A stretch of DNA of 64,000 nt from Acidicapsa ligni (GTDB lineage: Bacteria; Acidobacteriota; Terriglobia; Terriglobales; Acidobacteriaceae). The first letter of the stretch is position 1. Every line of letters begins with the position of its first letter. A program made the translations under genes and the position numbers. The stretch spans positions 372,001 to 436,000 of the forward strand of contig NZ_JAGSYG010000003.1 in the NCBI RefSeq assembly GCF_025685655.1, in the 5' to 3' direction. This document shows, piece after piece, positions 48,885 through 60,489 of this stretch. The notes under the pieces were generated by a model. It saw only the letters and a list, made by a program, of their open reading frames with translations, had not been told where the DNA came from and did no database searches.

Positions 48885-49676
48885 ATGAGAAATGTATCTC
48901 CTCTCCGTCGCCTATTGTTGGTCGCAGTTCTCTTCATCTCTGCTCCTATGCTGGCTGGCGCCGTCACGCCAGATGCTTTCATGCACTCCACCCAGATGAT
49001 CCTAGTCACCACTCCCGACTGGAACACCGTCGAAGGGCGCCTGCAGCGATACGAGCGCACCACCACGCATGAGACCTGGCATGCCGTAGGCGAACCAATC
49101 TCCATCGTCGTCGGCAAAAACGGTCTCGGCTGGGGAATAGGCGTGACTGCAACAGATGCACCCATTCGAGCAGCTTCCGATCCGGTTAAAAAAGAAGGCG
49201 ATGGCAAATCGCCCGCAGGCATTTTCTCCCTGGGCACTGCGTTTGGCTACTCATCTCAGCCTTTGCAGGCATTGAAAATGCCCTACCTGAATCTGACTCC
49301 ATCCATCGAATGCGTGGACGACATCCACTCGAAGCACTATAACCGCATCGTCGATCGCTCTGCCGTTACTTCGGATTGGAACAGCTCCGAGCACATGCGC
49401 AACACCGGCGAATCCTACCGCTGGGGAATCGTAGTCAATCACAACGGCATCGATGCGGATGGCAACACAAATCCGCCTCAACCCGCTGGCGGCTCCTGCA
49501 TCTTTCTTCACATCTGGCACAGTCACAACGAAGGTACAGCCGGATGCACAGCCATGCCGCAAGCCCAACTCGAAACCCTGCTCATCTGGCTCGATCCAAC
49601 ACGCAAGCCGCTCCTGGTTCAACTGCCGGAGTCTACCTATAAACAGCTAACTAAACGCTGGAGTTTGCCAAAATAA
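48885..49676 (+). CDS. Exported L,D-transpeptidase-like (YkuD-type) protein
   Basis: A 263-residue protein with a signal peptide (LLLVAVLFISAPMLAGA). The C-terminal catalytic region has His209 in CIFLHIWHSHNEGTAGCT, followed by Cys221, giving the HxxxxxxxxxxxGC signature of YkuD L,D-transpeptidases of the COG3786 type. KSPAGIFSLGTAFGY supplies the usual entry motif. Such enzymes make or remodel 3-3 peptidoglycan links or attach proteins to the wall. It is convergent with a D-Ala-D-Ala dipeptidase gene, the stops about 35 bp apart. Both act on peptide ends of peptidoglycan, so a shared wall-remodelling role is likely. RBS and start are not in doubt. Confidence 0.88.
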   Translation: MRNVSPLRRLLLVAVLFISAPMLAGAVTPDAFMHSTQMILVTTPDWNTVEGRLQRYERTTTHETWHAVGEPISIVVGKNGLGWGIGVTATDAPIRAASDPVKKEGDGKSPAGIFSLGTAFGYSSQPLQALKMPYLNLTPSIECVDDIHSKHYNRIVDRSAVTSDWNSSEHMRNTGESYRWGIVVNHNGIDADGNTNPPQPAGGSCIFLHIWHSHNEGTAGCTAMPQAQLETLLIWLDPTRKPLLVQLPESTYKQLTKRWSLPK

Positions 49677-49710: not shown

Positions 49711-50475
49711 CTACTGTCCAAGATCCTCAAACTTTATATTCAGGATTGGATACTGTTTCCAATCCTTGTAATCGAAGTGCCACCACTCTTTGGGAATAAC
49801 CTTGAAACCCTCATTCTCCATAACCTGGCGCAGCAGCGCGCGACGAGCACGTTCTTCCTCCGTGCCACCGGTGTAATCGGCATAAGCGCGATCGGTCATT
49901 TCGTCATAGCCACTCGGCATCTTCACTTCCCTGCCCGTTTTCAAATCATATAAAGACAGGTCCACAGCGCACCCACGATTATGTTTGGAGCCAGCAGACG
50001 GATCGGCAACAAAGATTCTCTTATCCACGGGCACAGCATCCCAGAACATCTTCGTGACATACCACGGACGATATCCATCGTGAATGATCAGCCCGTATCC
50101 CTGCGCCTTGAGTGCATGATGAGCGCGAAGCAACGCCTCCGCAGCCGGCCGTTGCAAAAAAGCCCGAGCCTGCGTGTATACCGGCGTACCTAGAAAATTG
50201 TTCGTCGTGGCATAGCGAATGTCGAGCTTGATTGTGGGATCAAGCGTGACCAGTTCCACCAAATCCGGCTTGAGAAAACTTCCCTGCTCCTGGGGTGGCT
50301 GCTGCTTAAGCGCCTCCGTACGCAACTCTTCCACCGGACGCAGAGGCGTGAGATGAAAGCTGACCTCCTGCGCAAAGCCGGGCAACGATAGAAGAAGACA
50401 GAGAGCACCAGGACGAATCCAACTGCTCAATAAAGATTTCACTGGCCTCATCGCAATAACTCTCATGGCGTCCAA
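49711..50475 (-). CDS. Exported D-alanyl-D-alanine dipeptidase (VanX/DdpX family, M15D)
   Basis: A 254-residue protein. After a signal peptide (ALCLLLSLPGFAQ) comes the VanX-type catalytic domain: LDIRYATTNNFLG, HDGYRPWYVTKMFWD (Arg136), zinc ligands His165 and Asp172 in SKHNRGCAVDLSL, and Glu230/His233 in KEWWHFDY. It hydrolyses free D-Ala-D-Ala, usually to recycle cell-wall peptide or confer glycopeptide resistance. Because it is exported and no vanHA genes are present, wall turnover or nutrient recovery is the better reading. It lies 39 bp upstream of no co-directional partner but is convergent with the L,D-transpeptidase. Confidence 0.92.
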   Translation of the reverse strand: MDAMRVIAMRPVKSLLSSWIRPGALCLLLSLPGFAQEVSFHLTPLRPVEELRTEALKQQPPQEQGSFLKPDLVELVTLDPTIKLDIRYATTNNFLGTPVYTQARAFLQRPAAEALLRAHHALKAQGYGLIIHDGYRPWYVTKMFWDAVPVDKRIFVADPSAGSKHNRGCAVDLSLYDLKTGREVKMPSGYDEMTDRAYADYTGGTEEERARRALLRQVMENEGFKVIPKEWWHFDYKDWKQYPILNIKFEDLGQ

Positions 50476-50514: not shown

Positions 50515-52659
50515 TTACGGAACGATGATGATTGGAGCCTGCCAGTAGGTCGATTTTTGTCCTGAGGGATCGACGATGGTGACCTGGCACGTGTACTCCC
50601 CTGGCGGAAGTTCGTTGAGAGGTATTGTGAAGCTCAGCGGAGTTACGCCTAGCCGGGTGTTAGCTTGAGGTGTAGCTTCTACAGGCTGGGATTGAAAGAC
50701 TTTGTTCTGCGCCTGGTAGAGGTTGACGTAAGCGACCAATGGTTGCGGAGCGGCGGCTGGTCCTGAGGCGGTCCCAGCTTCAGGCGCTTTATAAGCCAGC
50801 AGATAGACAAAGAGATTGTGGTCTTTGCTAAAGACGCGGGTAACACTTGGAATAAGTTTCTGACCGTTCTGAACAAGTGGATTGACGGCCTGTTCTTTCT
50901 CCTGATCCTTGGTCTTTTGCGCGTTGTAGAGAGCGTCTTTGATGTCAACCTTCTGGCTGCTGAGAACTACAGAACTGGTCGGGATGTGTTTAAGTTCCTT
51001 GTTCAGATTAGGCACAGTAAAGGTGGTCTGAAAGGTGCCAATGCGTCCGGTTTCATCATCGCGCGCGAGGAACTTGATCTCGTATTTTCCGGGCAGCAGG
51101 GTAAAACCCGCTTCATATTCGATAGGACGTTTGGCCAGTTCGGCAGCAGTGGCGTCGGTGAGTTTTACATTGACGTTGTCACGCAGATTGGTAGCTGTCG
51201 TTCCAGCGTACGTGTCTTTAACTTCGCCGATGAAGTCGATAAGTGTATGTTCAAATCCGCCACGCTTGGCGAGTGCTAACTCGCGGCCGGGAATCTTGAC
51301 AACGATAGGGACGAAGTACTCGGCGCGATTGAGTTGGAAGTAGTTGATCTCCATCGCAATGGTAAGTTCCGTGATGGGATCGGAAAGCATGAGCGCATCT
51401 TCAAGCTGGCGCTCTTTGTCCGTGGCATTGAACTTCCCAAATTTCTTGCCCGCGAAGTAGCCCTCACGATAATCGAGCGAGGCATTGAGCTCAGGATTGA
51501 CGGTGATCTTGATGTGGCGAAACTTTCCATTCAGAGCATCGTTCGTGGTGTAGTACCCAAGGATGTAGTAGTCGCCGATAGCCTGTTGTGCCTGGACGAT
51601 TCCTTTGGTGAGATCGTTGTAATCGAAAAGAGCCTTACCGCCGGTATCGCCTGCGAGTGAGTAGAGCGTGTCCTGCGATTGCTGAAAGTTAGTGGTAAGG
51701 GCAAGCGCGGCCGCACCGGTATACATGCCGATGTTGCCGGGCGATCCCTGCGTTGCGTCCCCTAATGGAGCCTCCGCAACGAGACCGCGAGCATCGATAG
51801 GCCAGAAGGAAACTCCAGCGCGTACAGCCGCATCGACCGTCGCATGAAGCTGCGCCTGGTTATCGATGCCATTGAGACGAAGCCCGCTGGCAAAGTAGAT
51901 AAGTGATTTTTTCTCATTGAGCGAGCCAAGCATTTTCGCTGCTGTCTGCAACGCAGAGAGCTGTCGGTCCGTGTTGAAGATGTTGAACTCGCTGTCGTCC
52001 TGGCCAAAGGCCGCACCGGTATCGGAGGCACTCGCATCGTCGTTGATTTCCGAGTTGCCCTGGCCTTCGCCTACGATGAGAGTTTCAAGGATACTCAGCA
52101 GTCGATTGCGGTCCGCTGTAAAGTCCTGGAGCACGTCCACCGAGCCACCGGAGTAGCGCAGAATCGATACAAGATCGGACTCGGTCATCTGCGTTCGTAT
52201 GAACTTCTGCGCAGCCGCCAGCGCGCGTAACTGATCGTTAGGCGGCATGGCAGACATGTCAAAGTAAAGAGCAAGCAGGCGTCGGTCTTTGTAGTGGATG
52301 TTGCCAGGCTGTTCAGGTGCAATCTGACTGCGGGCGAGACGGCGATAGAGCTTGAGATCCTCAGAGCCTTCAGGCATCGGCGCAGCAGGAGTTTGCGGCA
52401 GAGTCTGGTGTTCGCAGAAGCGGATCGTTTGTGACGCTCCATCTTCGGTAACGGTGAAGTCTTTGGCGCTGAGGCCAGAAATAGGATTGCCCTTTTTATC
52501 TTTTACAGAGATCGTTTCGACGACAAGCTGCGAGCCGACAGAGATGGTAAAAGTGCCGTCGGAGTTCATCGGTGCATTTTGACCTATGGTCTGCGCATGG
52601 GTTGAGAAAGCGGCTAAGACTGCGACGAAGACTGAGGTTAGAACTCTTTGTATTCGCAT
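50515..52659 (-). CDS. Acidobacterial VWFA-related secreted protein
   Basis: A 714-residue protein with a signal peptide (VLTSVFVAVLAAFSTHAQ). The next region, LVVETISVKDKKGNPISGLSAKDFTVTEDGASQ, is the conserved N-terminal strand pattern of the acidobacterial VWFA-related family. The vWA core has LLALYFDMSAMP (MIDAS-like DxSxx) and KSLIYFASGLRL. Later come GDYYILGYYTTNDALNGKFRHIKI and a C-terminal beta-sandwich ending TCQVTIVDPSGQKSTYWQAP. The upstream receptor-like gene ends one base before its ATG (TGACATG), so the two are translationally coupled. Its function is not established; vWA domains bind proteins in a metal-dependent way, so it may be a periplasmic or surface partner of that receptor. 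Confidence 0.9.
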   Translation of the reverse strand: MRIQRVLTSVFVAVLAAFSTHAQTIGQNAPMNSDGTFTISVGSQLVVETISVKDKKGNPISGLSAKDFTVTEDGASQTIRFCEHQTLPQTPAAPMPEGSEDLKLYRRLARSQIAPEQPGNIHYKDRRLLALYFDMSAMPPNDQLRALAAAQKFIRTQMTESDLVSILRYSGGSVDVLQDFTADRNRLLSILETLIVGEGQGNSEINDDASASDTGAAFGQDDSEFNIFNTDRQLSALQTAAKMLGSLNEKKSLIYFASGLRLNGIDNQAQLHATVDAAVRAGVSFWPIDARGLVAEAPLGDATQGSPGNIGMYTGAAALALTTNFQQSQDTLYSLAGDTGGKALFDYNDLTKGIVQAQQAIGDYYILGYYTTNDALNGKFRHIKITVNPELNASLDYREGYFAGKKFGKFNATDKERQLEDALMLSDPITELTIAMEINYFQLNRAEYFVPIVVKIPGRELALAKRGGFEHTLIDFIGEVKDTYAGTTATNLRDNVNVKLTDATAAELAKRPIEYEAGFTLLPGKYEIKFLARDDETGRIGTFQTTFTVPNLNKELKHIPTSSVVLSSQKVDIKDALYNAQKTKDQEKEQAVNPLVQNGQKLIPSVTRVFSKDHNLFVYLLAYKAPEAGTASGPAAAPQPLVAYVNLYQAQNKVFQSQPVEATPQANTRLGVTPLSFTIPLNELPPGEYTCQVTIVDPSGQKSTYWQAPIIIVP

Positions 52660-52660
52660 G

Positions 52661-55600
52661 TCAGAACCTCAGCCTTAGGGTCGATTGGAGGCTACGCATT
52701 TGATTGGCAGCAGCAGGCAATCCAAACTCGGAGCTGTTGATGGTCGTGTACCAGTTGGTGTAAGTAACATGATTGAGCAGGTTGGTAGAAACAATCTGAA
52801 AGTCGAGGTCGTAGCGATTGCGCACGCGAAATGCGCGAGCCATCGATGTGTTCAGAGTAAAGACATTGGGGCCGGTGATGGAGTCGCGGCCCGCTGTTCC
52901 CCATTGACCCGTCTGCGGTGTTGTGTATGCCGCGGGGTTGAGGAACAGGCCCGATGGAGCATCATGCACCGATACTCCCGTCAGATCAGGGCGGATGGTG
53001 CCGGTAACTCCTGTGCCCGGCACAGTACCAAAGTAGACCGGTGTCTGAGGCAGGCCTGTGCCGGTGGCGATATTCGTGAGCAACGTCCATTGCTTGAAGA
53101 GCGTACCTCGCCAGCCATCGAGCAGTGTGCCGCCACGCATGCCCATTCCCGTAGTGTATTGAATCTGCGCATTGAGCAAGTGTCGTTGATCAAAGGTAGA
53201 TAGGCTGCGCTCCGCGCGAAGATCCAACCAGTTCTGCGCAATCGTCGCAGAGGGTTGCGAGGAGCTTGTGGAACTGGCCGCCACTGGCCCCTGGCCACCC
53301 AGCACAGAGTCATCGTCTATGGATTTTGAATAGGTGTATTGCAAGGATGCGGTGAACCCGCTACGCAGTCTGCGCCGCAACTGGAGCATGCCTGCTTCGC
53401 GGCTGGAGCTGCCGTTCGAAGCACGGTAAGTAAAGCCTACCGGGCAGGACGTGCAGGGATTGGCCGCTCCGATGGGATAGGTATTGGGCAGGAACTCCTG
53501 TACGCCGTGAGTGCCCTTGATGCCGAGATAAGTCGCGGTCAGTTGCAATGAAAAAGGCAAGTCACTTTGCACCGATAGCTGCCAGGTCTGAGCAGAGCCG
53601 ACGCGGAAGTTAGGATCGACGGCGAAGGTATCCTGCGTAGTCTTGGAGCACGGGTTGAATCCCTGGGCAAGAGTAAGTGGACAGGCCGGGCTATTTTGCA
53701 CACTTAGACTTTTAGAGAGCGGAGCCTGCTGGGCAAGCGCAAGAGCCGTCGCTTGATAGACCGATGTGTCCTGATAGATACCGTAACCCGCGCGCACAAC
53801 AATCGATGAGCCTGCAAGCGGTCGCCAGGAGATGCCGATACGCGGCTCAACGCCGAGCTTGTCAGGACGGATCAGCGACGTTGGGTAGTTCTGCCGGGTC
53901 AGCAAGCCTGTGGGGCTGCTGGCCAGCACTGGAACCTCAGCGGCAAAGCCATTGGTTATATCCAGATTGACCAGGCGGTTGAATAGCTCCGTGATGGGGG
54001 CTCCGTACTCCCAGCGAACGCCCGCGTTGATAGAGAACTCGGGCTTGAGCCGCCAATCGTCGGTTGCGTAGGCGTCATATACAGACTCACGAAAATACTT
54101 ATCTGCGTTACCAAAGGCGATAGCGCTCGTATCCGGAATGCCCAGAAGAAAGTCGGCGAAGTCGGAGCCGCCGGTAGTTACTCCATTGACCGTGGTCTGC
54201 GTAGATGCGCCGGTGAAAGCGAAGGAACCACGCGGGTTTTGCTGCGACAGATAGTTGAACTGCTGACGGCGAAAATCGCCTCCAGCCGTGATGTATTGAT
54301 TGCGATGATTCCAGTTGACGTAGGACGAGATGGAGTTGGTTTCGTTGCGATTAAAAGAGCTTTGCGCATCGGTGAGCGAAGCTATGCCGCTCGAAAAGTT
54401 AAGGCTAGGCGGACCCCAATCGCGAGGGTCCTGGCTGTTACCTGAGATGTTGGCGTTACCGGAGATGTTCTCTACATTCGCAAAGTAAGGACGGACCAGT
54501 GTTCGCAGGCGACTAAAGCTGTATTTCGAAGTAAGAAACATCTGATGGCCCAGGCGATGCGACCAGTTAATGTTGGTGTCAACGCCAAGCGTATCCGTCG
54601 TGTCGAGGAAGTGGAAGATGCTGTTTCCATTGGCGCGATTGCTCGTGAAGGCAAAGCTTCCAAAGAGCTGATCGCGGCGTCCTATTCCTTTATCCAGGCG
54701 GGTTTGCAGCACGTCCTGATGCGTGTTACCCAGAACGGGTACCTGGTAGTTATAGATCGAGTTGCCCGAGTTTTCAGTGACATTGGGCAGTGGATAGAGA
54801 TCGAGTAAAGCCTGTGCCTGCGGGCTGATCGGCACCTCGTTGTTCTCGAATGGCAGACCTGTGAGGGGATTGAAGATCTGCAACGGCTGGCCCTGCGGAT
54901 CAAGCGCATGGGAGAAATCTCCTCCGCGCTCGGCAACGTCCGGAACAAGCGCGGACTGCGTAGTATCGGTGCGATTGCGCATCCACTGATAGACCATGAA
55001 GAAATTTGGGCCATGATAGAAGAAATGTGGAATGCGGATCGGGCCGCCAAAGGTCGCAACACCCGTGACCTGCGTGTAGTTGGCTTTAGGAGTATCAAGG
55101 CCGCTCAAAGAAAACGGCCTCGCATCGAGCGCGGAGCTGTCGACGACAAGCGCAAGGCCTCCGTTGTAGAGTCCCCTGCCGCCGTTACGTGTGTTGCCAA
55201 AGGCGCGGTCTAACGCGAACTGCGAGGTCGCCGCGTTATTGACGCTACCGTTGATCAGCAGCCCGTCGGAGGCGCGCTGATCCGTTGATTGCGCGGGCGC
55301 CGATTGCGGAGCTTGCGGTGCCTCAGGCTTGGCCATCTCCGAAGTTTTCGCATCCCTCGGCTTGGTCTGCTGAGTCGCTTCGGCCTGTAACGGCGCGGCG
55401 GCAGGAGTAACGGAGACAATGAGCTTGGCCTGGGCCTTGATCTCATCCAGCGATAGCAGCTTCAAATCCCACTTGCCTGCAGGTTGATTAGAAGCAATAG
55501 TGACATCCTGCTTGATCGTGGCAAAGCAGAGCATCTCAACTTGAATGGACCATGACCCATCAGCGAGATCAGGAAAGGAATACGCGCCTTGTTCATTGGT

Positions 55601-55768
55601 GATCGCCGTCAGCTTCTGATTCCCATTCGTAGCGGTAACAGTAGCCCCGGGAACAGGCAGACTATTAAACGTGACCTGGCCGTGATATTCCGAGGCTGAA
55701 GCCGTGAGGCCGCAGAGCCACACGATGGCGAACAGGAGCAGTGTTTGAGCAGTGCGCCGCCAGGGCAT
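52661..55768 (-). CDS. Oar/TBDR-like outer-membrane barrel protein lacking a recognisable plug
   Basis: A 1035-residue protein: signal peptide (LLLFAIVWLCGLTASAS), carboxypeptidase-regulatory domain (FNSLPVPGATVTATNGNQ), and an Ala/Pro/Gln-rich linker (about residues 121-168, with APQAPQSAPAQ). A segment with LLINGSVNNAATSQFALDRAF, FSLSGLDTPKANYTQ and ATFGGPIRIP follows, then a receptor-type barrel ending STLRLRF. The other four receptors in the window carry a plug with an (L)PxxGR motif and a VTKSGTN-like motif; neither occurs here. It may be a gated-open or TonB-independent variant. It precedes the VWFA-related gene by one base, and that combination is probably a functional pair. Substrate unknown. 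Confidence 0.85.
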   Translation of the reverse strand: MPWRRTAQTLLLFAIVWLCGLTASASEYHGQVTFNSLPVPGATVTATNGNQKLTAITNEQGAYSFPDLADGSWSIQVEMLCFATIKQDVTIASNQPAGKWDLKLLSLDEIKAQAKLIVSVTPAAAPLQAEATQQTKPRDAKTSEMAKPEAPQAPQSAPAQSTDQRASDGLLINGSVNNAATSQFALDRAFGNTRNGGRGLYNGGLALVVDSSALDARPFSLSGLDTPKANYTQVTGVATFGGPIRIPHFFYHGPNFFMVYQWMRNRTDTTQSALVPDVAERGGDFSHALDPQGQPLQIFNPLTGLPFENNEVPISPQAQALLDLYPLPNVTENSGNSIYNYQVPVLGNTHQDVLQTRLDKGIGRRDQLFGSFAFTSNRANGNSIFHFLDTTDTLGVDTNINWSHRLGHQMFLTSKYSFSRLRTLVRPYFANVENISGNANISGNSQDPRDWGPPSLNFSSGIASLTDAQSSFNRNETNSISSYVNWNHRNQYITAGGDFRRQQFNYLSQQNPRGSFAFTGASTQTTVNGVTTGGSDFADFLLGIPDTSAIAFGNADKYFRESVYDAYATDDWRLKPEFSINAGVRWEYGAPITELFNRLVNLDITNGFAAEVPVLASSPTGLLTRQNYPTSLIRPDKLGVEPRIGISWRPLAGSSIVVRAGYGIYQDTSVYQATALALAQQAPLSKSLSVQNSPACPLTLAQGFNPCSKTTQDTFAVDPNFRVGSAQTWQLSVQSDLPFSLQLTATYLGIKGTHGVQEFLPNTYPIGAANPCTSCPVGFTYRASNGSSSREAGMLQLRRRLRSGFTASLQYTYSKSIDDDSVLGGQGPVAASSTSSSQPSATIAQNWLDLRAERSLSTFDQRHLLNAQIQYTTGMGMRGGTLLDGWRGTLFKQWTLLTNIATGTGLPQTPVYFGTVPGTGVTGTIRPDLTGVSVHDAPSGLFLNPAAYTTPQTGQWGTAGRDSITGPNVFTLNTSMARAFRVRNRYDLDFQIVSTNLLNHVTYTNWYTTINSSEFGLPAAANQMRSLQSTLRLRF

Positions 55769-56838: not shown

Positions 56839-59800
56839 ATGACCTGTCCCACGCTCGTTCGGTTGAGAAGTATTTCCGTCTCCCTCTTCGCCTTTTTCAT
56901 GCTGACTGCCTTGTCCTTTGGACCCTTGTCGTTCGGACAAGGATATTTCGGCACCGTCAGTGGACTCATCACCGATCCTTCCGGTGCGTTGATTCCAAAC
57001 GCCAAAGTAACTCTTGTCGACCAGAACAAGGGTTTTCACTTCGATGGCAAGAGCGACGAAGGCGGCCGCTATCTCTTCCGCGCCGTGCCGCCAGGGGTGT
57101 ATACCGTCTCCGCTGAGGCACCCGGTTTCAACAAAGAAGAAAGAACTAACATCCGCGTCAATATCAGCGAAAATCCCGCAGCCAACCTGCGATTGAAGAT
57201 AGGTTCCACGCAATCGGTGGAGGTGAATGCAACCGATCAGCATCTCGACGTGGACGATGCGACGACAGGTGTAGTAGTGGGCCGGAATCTCATTAACAGC
57301 CTGCCGATGATCGACCGCTATGTGCTGGATCTCACAGCCTTGGCACCCGGCGTGACCACGGCAGACGATCAGTGCGGTACGAACTGTACCGGCACCAACT
57401 TCGTCTCCAACGGCAGCCGCAACGCAACCGCCGACGTGCTGCTGGATGGCGCGACGATCACCAACTTCGAGCCCAACGGCGGCGTGACGCAGGTGACGTA
57501 TGTACCCTCATCGGAAGCTGTCGAAGAGCTGCGCGTAGAGCAGTCGAACTTCAGCGCGGAGTATGGCTTCTCCGGCGGTTCGGTAGTCAACATGGTCACC
57601 CGTTCGGGCACCAATCAGTTCCACGGCGAGGTTTACGACTTTGCCCGCAATACCATCACCGACGCCAACTTCTGGTTCAATGACGCATACGACATTCCAT
57701 TGCCACCCGTCCACCGGCAGAACTTCGGCGGCGTCCTCGGCGGTCCGATCTGGCACAATAAGGCCTTCTTCTTCTTCGATTACGATGGCACGCGGCAGAG
57801 CAACGCTTCCAGCTATCAGGCAGGTGTGCCTTCCGACGCCGAGCGCAACAGTGGCGACTTCGGCTCGGTCTGTTCCAACGCAGGCGGCACCTTTGATTCG
57901 ACGGGCAAATGCTCGGTGGCGTCAGGCCAGATCTGGGATCCGTACGTAGCCACCTATGTCTCCACCGACAACGGCGCCGGCCCGCTGCGCAGCAACTTCA
58001 TCCCGTTCAACAACGTGGGCACTTACACCAGCCCCGGTAACGCCGTAGCGAATATACCCTCTGGTCCCGGCAACCTGATCGACCCTGTCGCGCAGAAGAT
58101 GATGAAGCTCTTTCCCGAACCCCTGGCCAACGTGCAGGCGCAGAGCGGGACAATCTACCACAACTGGAACGGCTCGGGCGCAACCGCTAATCCTAACGAT
58201 CAGTACGATATCAAGGTCGACTATCGCTTCAACGAGAAGAACCTGCTAAGCGGCAAGTATTCCGATCAGTGGACGAGCACGGTGGCCTACAACTGCTTCA
58301 AGAACTTCGCTGATCCCTGCGCTGGCGGCCCAAATAAGTCGACCTCACACCTCCTCTCGATCAACGACACCCATACCTTCAGCCCGACAATGCAGTTGAC
58401 CACGATTTTCGGCTTCACCCGTGGCACCGAGCGCATCAGCGCCTACAACGGAGAGGGCGGCGTCACCGATCCGCTGGGCACGCTCGGCTTCCCGGAGTAT
58501 CTCAACTCCAACGGCATCGTCGGCGTTCCGGCAATCTTCATCAACACCTATTACTCAGCCGGATACACCAGCATTGGCGGCGATCCCTACGGCAACTACA
58601 AGCAGGGCCAGGATACCGGGCAGGTCACGGTAACACTGGATAAGGTGCTCGGGCCGCATGACTTCAAGATCGGCTTTGAAGGCCGCCTGCACCAGATGAA
58701 CTACATCCAGACCAATGCGCCGGAAGGCATCTTCAACTTCGACAACACCGGAACGGCGGGCTGCCCATATACCTTCGACGCATGCGGCGGCGACGCGATG
58801 GCCAGCTTCATGATGGGGCAAACCTCCCTCAACAACGTAGGCACTTACGAGATACAGGACGAGCCCGCGACCGAAGATCACCAGTTTGCCGTCTACGGGC
58901 AGGAGAACTGGAAATTCAACAGCAAGCTGACCGTGAACCTTGGCCTGCGCTATGACGTCTCCATCCCGCGCACCGACCGCCACAATCGGCAGAACTGGTT
59001 CGACCCGACGGCTACGTACAGCATCGGAACCATACCGGCGGTGGGCGGCGAGAGGTTTGCCAGCTCCAAAGAACGACACATGGTCAACACCGACTGGCGC
59101 GATATTCAGCCGCGCTTCGGCTTCGCATACCTGCTGTCGCCAAAACTGGTAGTACGCGGCGGCTACGGTATCTACTATTCGCAGTCCCGCGCCGGTGCAA
59201 GCGGCGTCACTCCGTACGGCTCGCAGGGCTTTAACCAGTCGACGAACATGATTCCGACATTCAACAACGATGGCGCCACCGCATACCTCCACCTGAACAA
59301 CCCGTTCCCAAGTGGCCTGAACCAGCCTCCCGGCAACTCGCTCGGACTGCTGAACGATGTAGGCCTGGGTGCCACTGGTCCGCTGCGCAACATGGTAGCC
59401 ACGCCCTATGAACAGAGCTGGAGCTTTGGCTTCGAGCAGCAGCTCCCTTCCAACATGAAGTTCGGCCTTTCGTACATCGGCAAAAAGGGAGTGCATCTCT
59501 ACTTCTCAGGCGCCAACTACATCAACCATCTCGGGCCAGAGGTTGAGGGCTACTCGCCAGACCAGATCAGCAACCTCTTCAACTACGTCAACAACCCCTA
59601 CTCAGGCCCCATTACAAACCCCAACAGTTGCCTTTCTTCTCCGACCGTGCCGCTGTTCCAACTGCAGGAGCCGTATCCGCAGTTCTCCTGCGGTGGCGTC
59701 TCTACCGAAGCATGGCCGATCGCGTGGTCGATCTATCACGCGATGCAAGCGGTCTTTGAGAAGAGCTACTCCAACGGATTGCAAATCCTGGCCACCTATA

Positions 59801-60489
59801 CCTGGTCAAAATCGATGGACGACTCTTCGGTTCCGGACGACAACACGACCTGGCTTGGCAGCTTCACCAGCCTGCAGGATCCGAACAAGCCGTGGCTGGA
59901 AAAGAGCCTCTCCACCTTCGATATTCCGCAGGTCTTCCAGGTGAGCTACACCTATGAACTGCCGATCGGCCGTAAGAAGCTCCTAGGAGCCAATATGCCT
60001 CGGTGGACAGATGCGCTGATCGGCGGCTGGAAGACGAATGGAATCTGGCGCGTCAGTGATGGGCGCCCGCTCAACTTCGGCACCTACGACGGCACTTCGC
60101 TCCCAACTTACGGAGGACAGCGGCCAAACCGTGTGGCCAAGCCGCGGCGCACCTCCGGCAAGGACTCCGTATGGATCAACCAATACATCGCAAACCCCGA
60201 TTCGATGGTACTGCCCGCACCGTACACACTCGGCAATGCTCCACGCGCCGATGGAGAAATCCGCACACCCGGCGCCTTCAACGTTTCCGCGAGTGTGAAC
60301 AAGGTCTTCTCCCTCTCCACGATCCGCGAAGGCCTCTCGCTGGAATTGCGCCTCGAAGCGCAGAATGCATTTAACCATCCAGTCTTCGGAACCCCGGATC
60401 AATCAATCGATGATCCCGACTTCGGAGTCATCTCCTACACTCAAAACTCACCCCGACAAATGCAACTGGCAGCAAAGATCAACTTCTAA
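56839..60489 (+). CDS. Oar-like TonB-dependent outer-membrane receptor
   Basis: A 1216-residue receptor: signal peptide (VSLFAFFMLTALSFGPLSFG), carboxypeptidase-regulatory domain (VSGLITDPSGALIPNAKVTL ... VPPGVYTVSAEAPGFN), a plug with LPMIDRYVLDLTALAPG and SVVNMVTRSGTNQFHGEVYDF, and a barrel ending MQLAAKINF with terminal Phe. Codon use is more GC3-rich than in the genes to its right. An 8-Cys-containing surface segment (for example DQCGTNCTG and CFKNFADPCAGG) may form disulphides. It stands alone; no glycosidase or regulator is adjacent, so the substrate is unknown. Confidence 0.92.
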   Translation: MTCPTLVRLRSISVSLFAFFMLTALSFGPLSFGQGYFGTVSGLITDPSGALIPNAKVTLVDQNKGFHFDGKSDEGGRYLFRAVPPGVYTVSAEAPGFNKEERTNIRVNISENPAANLRLKIGSTQSVEVNATDQHLDVDDATTGVVVGRNLINSLPMIDRYVLDLTALAPGVTTADDQCGTNCTGTNFVSNGSRNATADVLLDGATITNFEPNGGVTQVTYVPSSEAVEELRVEQSNFSAEYGFSGGSVVNMVTRSGTNQFHGEVYDFARNTITDANFWFNDAYDIPLPPVHRQNFGGVLGGPIWHNKAFFFFDYDGTRQSNASSYQAGVPSDAERNSGDFGSVCSNAGGTFDSTGKCSVASGQIWDPYVATYVSTDNGAGPLRSNFIPFNNVGTYTSPGNAVANIPSGPGNLIDPVAQKMMKLFPEPLANVQAQSGTIYHNWNGSGATANPNDQYDIKVDYRFNEKNLLSGKYSDQWTSTVAYNCFKNFADPCAGGPNKSTSHLLSINDTHTFSPTMQLTTIFGFTRGTERISAYNGEGGVTDPLGTLGFPEYLNSNGIVGVPAIFINTYYSAGYTSIGGDPYGNYKQGQDTGQVTVTLDKVLGPHDFKIGFEGRLHQMNYIQTNAPEGIFNFDNTGTAGCPYTFDACGGDAMASFMMGQTSLNNVGTYEIQDEPATEDHQFAVYGQENWKFNSKLTVNLGLRYDVSIPRTDRHNRQNWFDPTATYSIGTIPAVGGERFASSKERHMVNTDWRDIQPRFGFAYLLSPKLVVRGGYGIYYSQSRAGASGVTPYGSQGFNQSTNMIPTFNNDGATAYLHLNNPFPSGLNQPPGNSLGLLNDVGLGATGPLRNMVATPYEQSWSFGFEQQLPSNMKFGLSYIGKKGVHLYFSGANYINHLGPEVEGYSPDQISNLFNYVNNPYSGPITNPNSCLSSPTVPLFQLQEPYPQFSCGGVSTEAWPIAWSIYHAMQAVFEKSYSNGLQILATYTWSKSMDDSSVPDDNTTWLGSFTSLQDPNKPWLEKSLSTFDIPQVFQVSYTYELPIGRKKLLGANMPRWTDALIGGWKTNGIWRVSDGRPLNFGTYDGTSLPTYGGQRPNRVAKPRRTSGKDSVWINQYIANPDSMVLPAPYTLGNAPRADGEIRTPGAFNVSASVNKVFSLSTIREGLSLELRLEAQNAFNHPVFGTPDQSIDDPDFGVISYTQNSPRQMQLAAKINF

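Follow-up and report, generated by a model that had tools for sequence, protein, structure and literature searches.

A conserved acidobacterial gene pair joining a plug-less Oar-type outer-membrane barrel to a VWFA-related protein

The 64,000-nucleotide stretch of Acidicapsa ligni DNA analysed here (contig NZ_JAGSYG010000003.1, positions 372,001 to 436,000 of the forward strand, assembly GCF_025685655.1; hereafter the window) carries a gene for an Oar-type outer-membrane barrel protein without a plug and, one base behind it, a gene for a von Willebrand factor A-related (VWFA) protein. TonB-dependent-type barrels are usually portrayed as pores that a plug belonging to the same polypeptide keeps closed. 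The plug-less barrel and its VWFA gene occur together in soil bacteria through much of the Acidobacteriota, and we tentatively favour, at somewhat less than even confidence, an obligate complex whose barrel, having no plug of its own, is gated or closed by the VWFA protein. Among the titles and abstracts listed in literature searches that covered few subscription journals, none concerns such a pair, and passages of a Solibacter genome paper (PMC3174227) do not mention it.

The barrel protein lacks a plug

An initial annotation, made from the sequence alone, had read the barrel protein as the regulatory domain and barrel of an Oar-like receptor with the plug missing. Both parts of this reading hold. 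Behind an apparent signal peptide the Pfam scan placed a CarboxypepD_reg domain at residues 30 to 97 and the barrel family OMP_b-brl_4 (PF25183, E 6e-141) from residue 210, entering at profile position 18, and at E<=1 it returned no Plug family for this protein. The neighbouring Oar (56839-60489) has the same domains together with a Plug match at E 2e-4, slightly below the curated cut-off. In the AlphaFold2 model, built from 63 aligned sequences with a mean predicted local distance difference test score (pLDDT) of 84.1, the regulatory domain scores mostly around 90 and most of the barrel loops are predicted with high confidence, while residues 115-197 fall below 50, the linker is without any strand and the barrel strands start at residue 202. 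A plug fold between residues 168 and 300, which the initial annotation had named as evidence against its reading, is not there, because residues 168-201 are predicted to be unfolded and residues 202-274 form the first barrel strands. That annotation had also let an Ala/Pro/Gln-rich linker and a short unfamiliar segment take the place of the plug; the linker stands, and the segment turns out to be a conserved INGSxNNAA-type motif at approximately residues 163-190, leading into the first barrel strand. Linker residues 117-162 are the least conserved of the regions compared, with 17% identity to the window among close relatives, and a TonB box could lie within them.

The best structural matches of the barrel model are TonB-dependent transporter barrels, with PirA at a VIA-align Z of 21.8 (4.0 Å over 443 residues) and YddB at a Foldseek E of 3e-20. 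Of the 50 structure matches, 48 have an alignment that begins at residues 110-133, inside or just before the unfolded linker; for the two remaining rows, SusC 5T4Y and 5T3R, it begins at residues 199 and 200.

The possibility of a hidden, divergent plug was rejected, since none was found by profile search or in the AlphaFold2 model. A plug profile grown from the Oar of the window matched none of 132 pair barrels (best score 5.7 bits), and it found the plug in 15 other barrels of the same DNA; 19 further pair barrels also gave no plug match. In the test of 132 barrels, 12 pair barrels had been binned as "other" when their VWFA frame fell outside the length or distance window, and all 12 are without a plug match; that bin also contained one locus-edge fragment (L197) and 12 frames without a barrel match. 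The 5.7 Mb A. ligni genome has at least 59 Oar-family barrels and 14 VWFA-related matches. Within it, the plug profile matched 57 of 57 other Oar-family barrels tested and neither of the two pair barrels, the second of which is followed by a VWFA gene of its own (L083, contig C5). Two rounds of refinement on these very sequences went into the genome-wide profile; 65 of 74 first-look candidates were scored, and one 208-aa barrel fragment was left out. In 30 complete plugged barrels of this genome the plug lies in the same frame as the barrel. Since the plug was tested for and is missing, the protein cannot be counted fully among the TonB-dependent transporters and represents a derived branch of these, associated with a new partner.

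The gene pair is conserved across Acidobacteriota

The barrel stop codon TGA occupies positions 52663-52661 and the VWFA start codon ATG positions 52659-52657, both on the minus strand, and a GAGG sequence precedes the ATG within the final codons of the barrel gene. The coupling of the two genes, noted from the outset, is thus real in the window, and it also holds in relatives. A search of the order (150 genomes) with residues 163-263 of the barrel protein found 52 places, spread over 48 genomes, one of the places being the window itself. In all of the 51 others the VWFA gene is next downstream of the barrel gene on the same strand; a separation of the two genes in most relatives, which the initial annotation had named as evidence against its reading, is not seen. 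From the barrel stop to the first plausible VWFA ATG the distance was -1 to +4 bases in 43 of 45 close relatives, and +10 and +46 bases in the other two, the latter having a TTG at +1. Chance adjacency is excluded by this conserved gene order, and the candidate explanation of a decayed gene was discarded as well, the frames being open and conserved across the phylum.

The association was also followed from the partner. With the C-terminal module of the VWFA protein as query, 297 genomes of the phylum yielded 66 strong matches (E<=1e-45). Of these, 61 were examined, and 58 have a barrel upstream, with the frames at most approximately 380 bases apart. The exceptions are L103, where the contig ends, L092, an N-truncated VWFA gene without a barrel in 7 kb, and L297, a 300-aa fragment. 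Among the best 80 of 450 relatives in a contig scan of named genomes, all placed in Acidobacteriota and including Granulicella, Acidicapsa, Silvibacterium, Edaphobacter, Occallatibacter, Bryobacterales and Solibacter, a barrel accompanies 75 and the remaining five are contig ends, so that contig ends make up six of the eight misses over the 61 and 80 VWFA relatives. The genome sets of the order, of the phylum and of the named contigs overlap and their counts are not independent, and the profile searches were confined to Acidobacteriota. A plasmid collection returned four records with distant relatives at 23-25% identity, none covering 80% of the query.

A second, paralogous family of pairs comprises 12 barrels of 1096-1166 aa that carry longer Gly-rich linkers with a short helix-like stretch at the place of the plug, and their gene spacing is looser, up to 205 bases. 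It includes the second A. ligni pair (L083) and L084-L088, and it is also present in two genomes (G062 and G042) that gave no match to the window-type barrel segment. In one distant pair (L120:2324-8122) an N-terminal part of some 300 residues without a family match replaces the regulatory domain of the barrel protein. As this locus keeps the plug-less barrel and the partner with no recognisable regulatory domain, the core of the system is the barrel plus the VWFA protein.

A probable single origin of the association

In a tree of the barrel part, a single split with a support of 1.0 sets 136 pair rows apart from 45 plugged rows, and in a tree of the VWA domain one group of 161 sequences (153 pair VWFAs and eight others) was separated from 23 VWFAs with a support of 0.997. 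The eight others are six VWFAs at contig ends, one truncated gene and one mis-sorted sequence. Both trees are unrooted FastTree trees. Four of the 12 "other"-bin pair barrels were added to the barrel tree, three of its 45 plugged rows are the Oars of the window repeated, and some of its pair rows represent the same species from two collections. Since barrels and VWFAs each form one supported group, the association most likely arose once.

The VWFA partner has an incomplete metal site and a C-terminal module

The identification of the partner as a VWFA-related protein was confirmed by a match to TIGR03436 over residues 38-403 with 233 bits against a curated cut-off of 81.25. Its N-terminus reads by eye as a signal peptide without a lipobox. 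The AlphaFold2 model has a mean pLDDT of 82.5 and a predicted template modelling score of 0.56, and the arrangement of the domains is therefore uncertain. The N-terminal domain of the model has the VWA fold, with Z values of up to 16 to known VWA folds. Matches to this domain filled the structure search, which gave the C-terminal module no fold assignment, and no Pfam family reached its cut-off in the last approximately 310 residues; a profile search of the module against solved structures gave one weak match (E 0.0055). The module is missing from all 12 other VWFAs of the A. ligni genome. Six genomes contained 11-21 VWFA-related matches each.

A complete metal-ion-dependent adhesion site (MIDAS) consists of DxSxS and an Asp in loop 3. 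In the 161 VWFAs of the pair group the first Asp is kept in 160 and a Ser or Thr at the third position in 142, whereas the fifth position is Met or Leu and the loop-3 position Ser or Gly in 159 of 161 each. Among the 23 VWFAs outside the group, 17 have Ser or Thr at the fifth position and 16 have Asp or Glu in loop 3. The partner had been called an adhesion-type protein; with its C-terminal extension, its incomplete metal site and a sequence more conserved than that of the barrel, it finds no support as a metal-dependent adhesin.

Outside the pair group, six further VWFAs carry this C-terminal module (two in L119 and one each in L113, L122, L130 and L082:10166-12055). In L113 and L122 a plugged Oar lies approximately 1.2-1.5 kb upstream of the module-bearing VWFA, and the extra copy in L082 lies approximately 1 kb upstream of that locus's own pair. 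The module is shared more weakly (E approximately 1e-20 to 1e-31) by GWxTD-domain proteins of Acidobacteriota (L114, L117, L121 and L128), the one in L128 being encoded directly downstream of a plugged Oar barrel.

The partner is more conserved than the barrel

Over 40 close relatives the VWFA protein has a mean identity to the window of 68.6% and the barrel protein one of 61.0%. The VWFA protein is the more conserved one in 54 of 62 pairs, and the same holds for its VWA domain in 61 and for its C-terminal module in 45 of them. This conservation, together with the near-strict pairing and the presumed near-equal translation of the two genes, fits better with a constant subunit than with a variable cargo. 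The idea that the long, presumably extracellular loops of the barrel are unusually conserved was dropped, since plugged orthologues show the same level.

Features of the locus and neighbouring genes

The features of the pair are collected in Table 1. A scan for promoters and terminators gave no more sites than shuffled sequence did. A gene for an M15/VanX-like dipeptidase (49711-50475, minus strand, Pfam scan) begins 39 bases downstream of the VWFA gene; a three-gene operon including it was considered and rejected, as no M15 match occurs near the pair in the 51 other loci. Convergent to it is a YkuD-like gene (48885-49676, plus strand), a weak match slightly below its cut-off.

Table 1 Features of the barrel-VWFA pair, in positions of the window.
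Feature	Position	Strand	Basis
Plug-less Oar-type outer-membrane barrel protein, 1035 aa	52661..55768	minus	Open reading frame; PF25183 E 6e-141; PF13620 E 9e-12; AlphaFold2; structural matches
Carboxypeptidase regulatory-like domain, residues 26-101	55466..55693	minus	Pfam and AlphaFold2
Unfolded stretch at the place of the plug, residues 115-197 (Ala/Pro/Gln-rich linker with the beginning of the motif segment)	55178..55426	minus	pLDDT <50
Conserved signature segment, residues 163-263 (INGSxNNAA-type motif and first barrel strands)	54980..55282	minus	Used as search query
Barrel, residues 202-1035	52661..55165	minus	Pfam, AlphaFold2, structure matches
Single base between barrel stop and VWFA start	52660..52660	minus	Sequence
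VWFA protein, 714 aa	50515..52659	minus	TIGR03436 233 bits; AlphaFold2; VWA-fold matches
VWA domain with incomplete MIDAS, residues 38-403	51451..52548	minus	TIGR03436, VWA-fold matches, motif counts
Beta-rich C-terminal module of two apparent sandwich regions, residues 405-714	50518..51447	minus	Profile search, AlphaFold2

Possible roles of the VWFA protein

In the preferred explanation the two proteins would form an obligate outer-membrane complex. The barrel, which comes from the Oar branch of the TonB-dependent transporters, has lost the folded plug of its lumen, and the disordered linker and the conserved motif stand where the plug was. The VWFA protein, presumably translated from the same message in near-equal amount and exported by its signal peptide, would most likely attach to the barrel and serve as a gate of its own. 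The gate could be a stopper acting from the periplasm or a lid reached after passage through the barrel. In Myxococcus an Oar without its plug was less abundant, appeared degraded in starvation and did not support secretion of PopC (PMC6434023). By analogy, loss of the plug should need compensation by a substitute. A complex gated by the VWFA protein is favoured because the VWFA protein is the more conserved partner, the pairing is near-strict, a lost plug would need a substitute and separate stoppers or lids exist in other systems (SprA/Plug and SusCD). That the two proteins bind, that binding closes or gates the pore, from which side this happens and what passes through are matters that we infer.

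Several observations weigh against a gating complex. Covariation between barrel and VWFA protein, calculated for 106 non-redundant of 121 pairs, gave top scores equal to those of a neighbour-swap control that moved 39% of the partners, and no docking site. The barrel loops did not exceed those of the neighbouring Oar's plugged orthologues in conservation (0.727 against 0.734, 11 sequences per set), and the turns were less conserved in the pair barrels (0.643 against 0.727, 24 columns), so that a docking face on the periplasmic side is unsupported. The linker alone might close the lumen, given that nearly all of the structure alignments start in or near it, at a model confidence that is useless there. 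Two VWFA pieces occur without a barrel (L092 and L297), both being truncated genes. By eye, most of the long VWFAs outside the pair group also lack the MIDAS motif, and as most of these module-bearing proteins share the loss it is not confined to the pair. Finally, a short VWFA with a canonical MIDAS lies in the A. ligni genome 820 bases upstream of a plugged Oar on the same strand, in the opposite gene order (L269:1894-7144, minus strand).

A different explanation is dedicated secretion or surface display, as the initial annotation had proposed, in which the plug-less barrel would serve solely to export the VWFA protein, the latter being let go or kept at the surface as cargo, as in two-partner pairs or pairs resembling those of the type 11 secretion system (T11SS). 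An outer-membrane protein gene adjoining that of a protein with an apparent signal peptide, and a barrel without a plug, are what such a system would offer, and the Oar transporter of Myxococcus is required for secretion of PopC (PMC6434023). The same study found that the plug and its TonB box were required (PMC6434023), the VWFA protein is more conserved than the barrel, which is the reverse of the expectation for a displayed cargo, and in none of the 51 loci does another gene take the place of the VWFA gene behind the barrel. Since neither covariation nor surface conservation yielded a binding site, display of a cargo stays in the field as a rival; we rate it below a gate or lid and consider it rather unlikely. 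Closure of the barrel in cis is about as doubtful, if not slightly more so. Here the linker, or in the second family the Gly-rich stretch with its short helix-like piece, would close the lumen together with inward-folded loops, and the VWFA protein would be a substrate-binding or assembly subunit of a specific porin rather than its plug. In all inspected N-termini of pair barrels the plug's place is taken by a low-complexity linker whose length varies, most loops are confidently placed in the model, and the start of the structure alignments in or just before the linker points the same way; as the least conserved region, and one predicted to be unfolded, the linker is unlike a structural stopper. 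The least probable of these explanations gives the VWFA protein a periplasmic task in the assembly or quality control of the barrel, or makes it a cell-wall tether, with no part in gating. Near-perfect co-occurrence and gene order would be compatible with such a role. It can also be said for it that the 57 plugged barrels of the same genome are not known to need such a partner. Against it, a catalytic assembly factor needs no near-equal amount, and the Pfam scan of the VWFA protein showed no cell-wall-binding family.

Going beyond the preferred gated complex, and with correspondingly less confidence, the pair may represent a split, TonB-independent class of transporters: the plug would have been discarded once in Acidobacteriota and gating passed to a VWA-fold protein with a gene of its own, translated 1:1 with the barrel from a shared message, giving a two-protein gated outer-membrane pore that spread through much of the phylum in at least two paralogous pair families. 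A natural, phylum-wide branch of plug-less barrels tied to one partner gene offers a ready test of how such pores stay shut, and of whether a second protein can take over as the plug. For one member of the expanded acidobacterial VWFA family it also suggests a specific role that can be tested.

Comparison with known systems

In two-partner secretion the gene for an outer-membrane protein adjoins that for a secreted protein, and the outer-membrane protein and cargo pairs of the T11SS are arranged in the same way (PMC12282271). The pair described here differs from both systems in that neither of its proteins has a Pfam family of either kind and in that the partner is more conserved than the barrel. 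At E<=1 the Pfam scan of the barrel protein, which is of Oar type, contained no POTRA or TpsB-type family.

The partner belongs with the acidobacterial VWFA family TIGR03436, scoring well above its cut-off, and is set apart from other members by its long C-terminal module, absent from the 12 further copies in A. ligni, and by its incomplete MIDAS. The barrel shares with the Oar subclass, as described for Myxococcus xanthus (PMC6434023), the CarboxypepD_reg extension, the Oar-type barrel and the match to TonB-dependent transporter barrels. It departs from that subclass in being without a plug, in having a poorly conserved linker where a TonB box could lie, and in its obligate VWFA partner gene.

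Two systems from elsewhere work in a way comparable to that proposed here. In SusC/SusD a transporter barrel is served by a separately encoded lid (PMC7782687), and an earlier crystal form of SusC, 5T3R, which had lost its plug by proteolysis (PMC7782687), is among our structural matches and aligns only from barrel residue 200. The SusC gene nevertheless encodes a plug, and the partner here has a VWA fold with no lipobox seen and, in the Pfam scan at E<=1, no SusD family. A pore closed by a separate protein also occurs in type 9 secretion, in SprA/Sov with its Plug protein (PMC7463736). SprA is a 36-strand barrel of a Bacteroidetes system with many further components (PMC7463736), whereas the barrel of the present pair is of the Oar type and matches the barrels of ordinary transporters.

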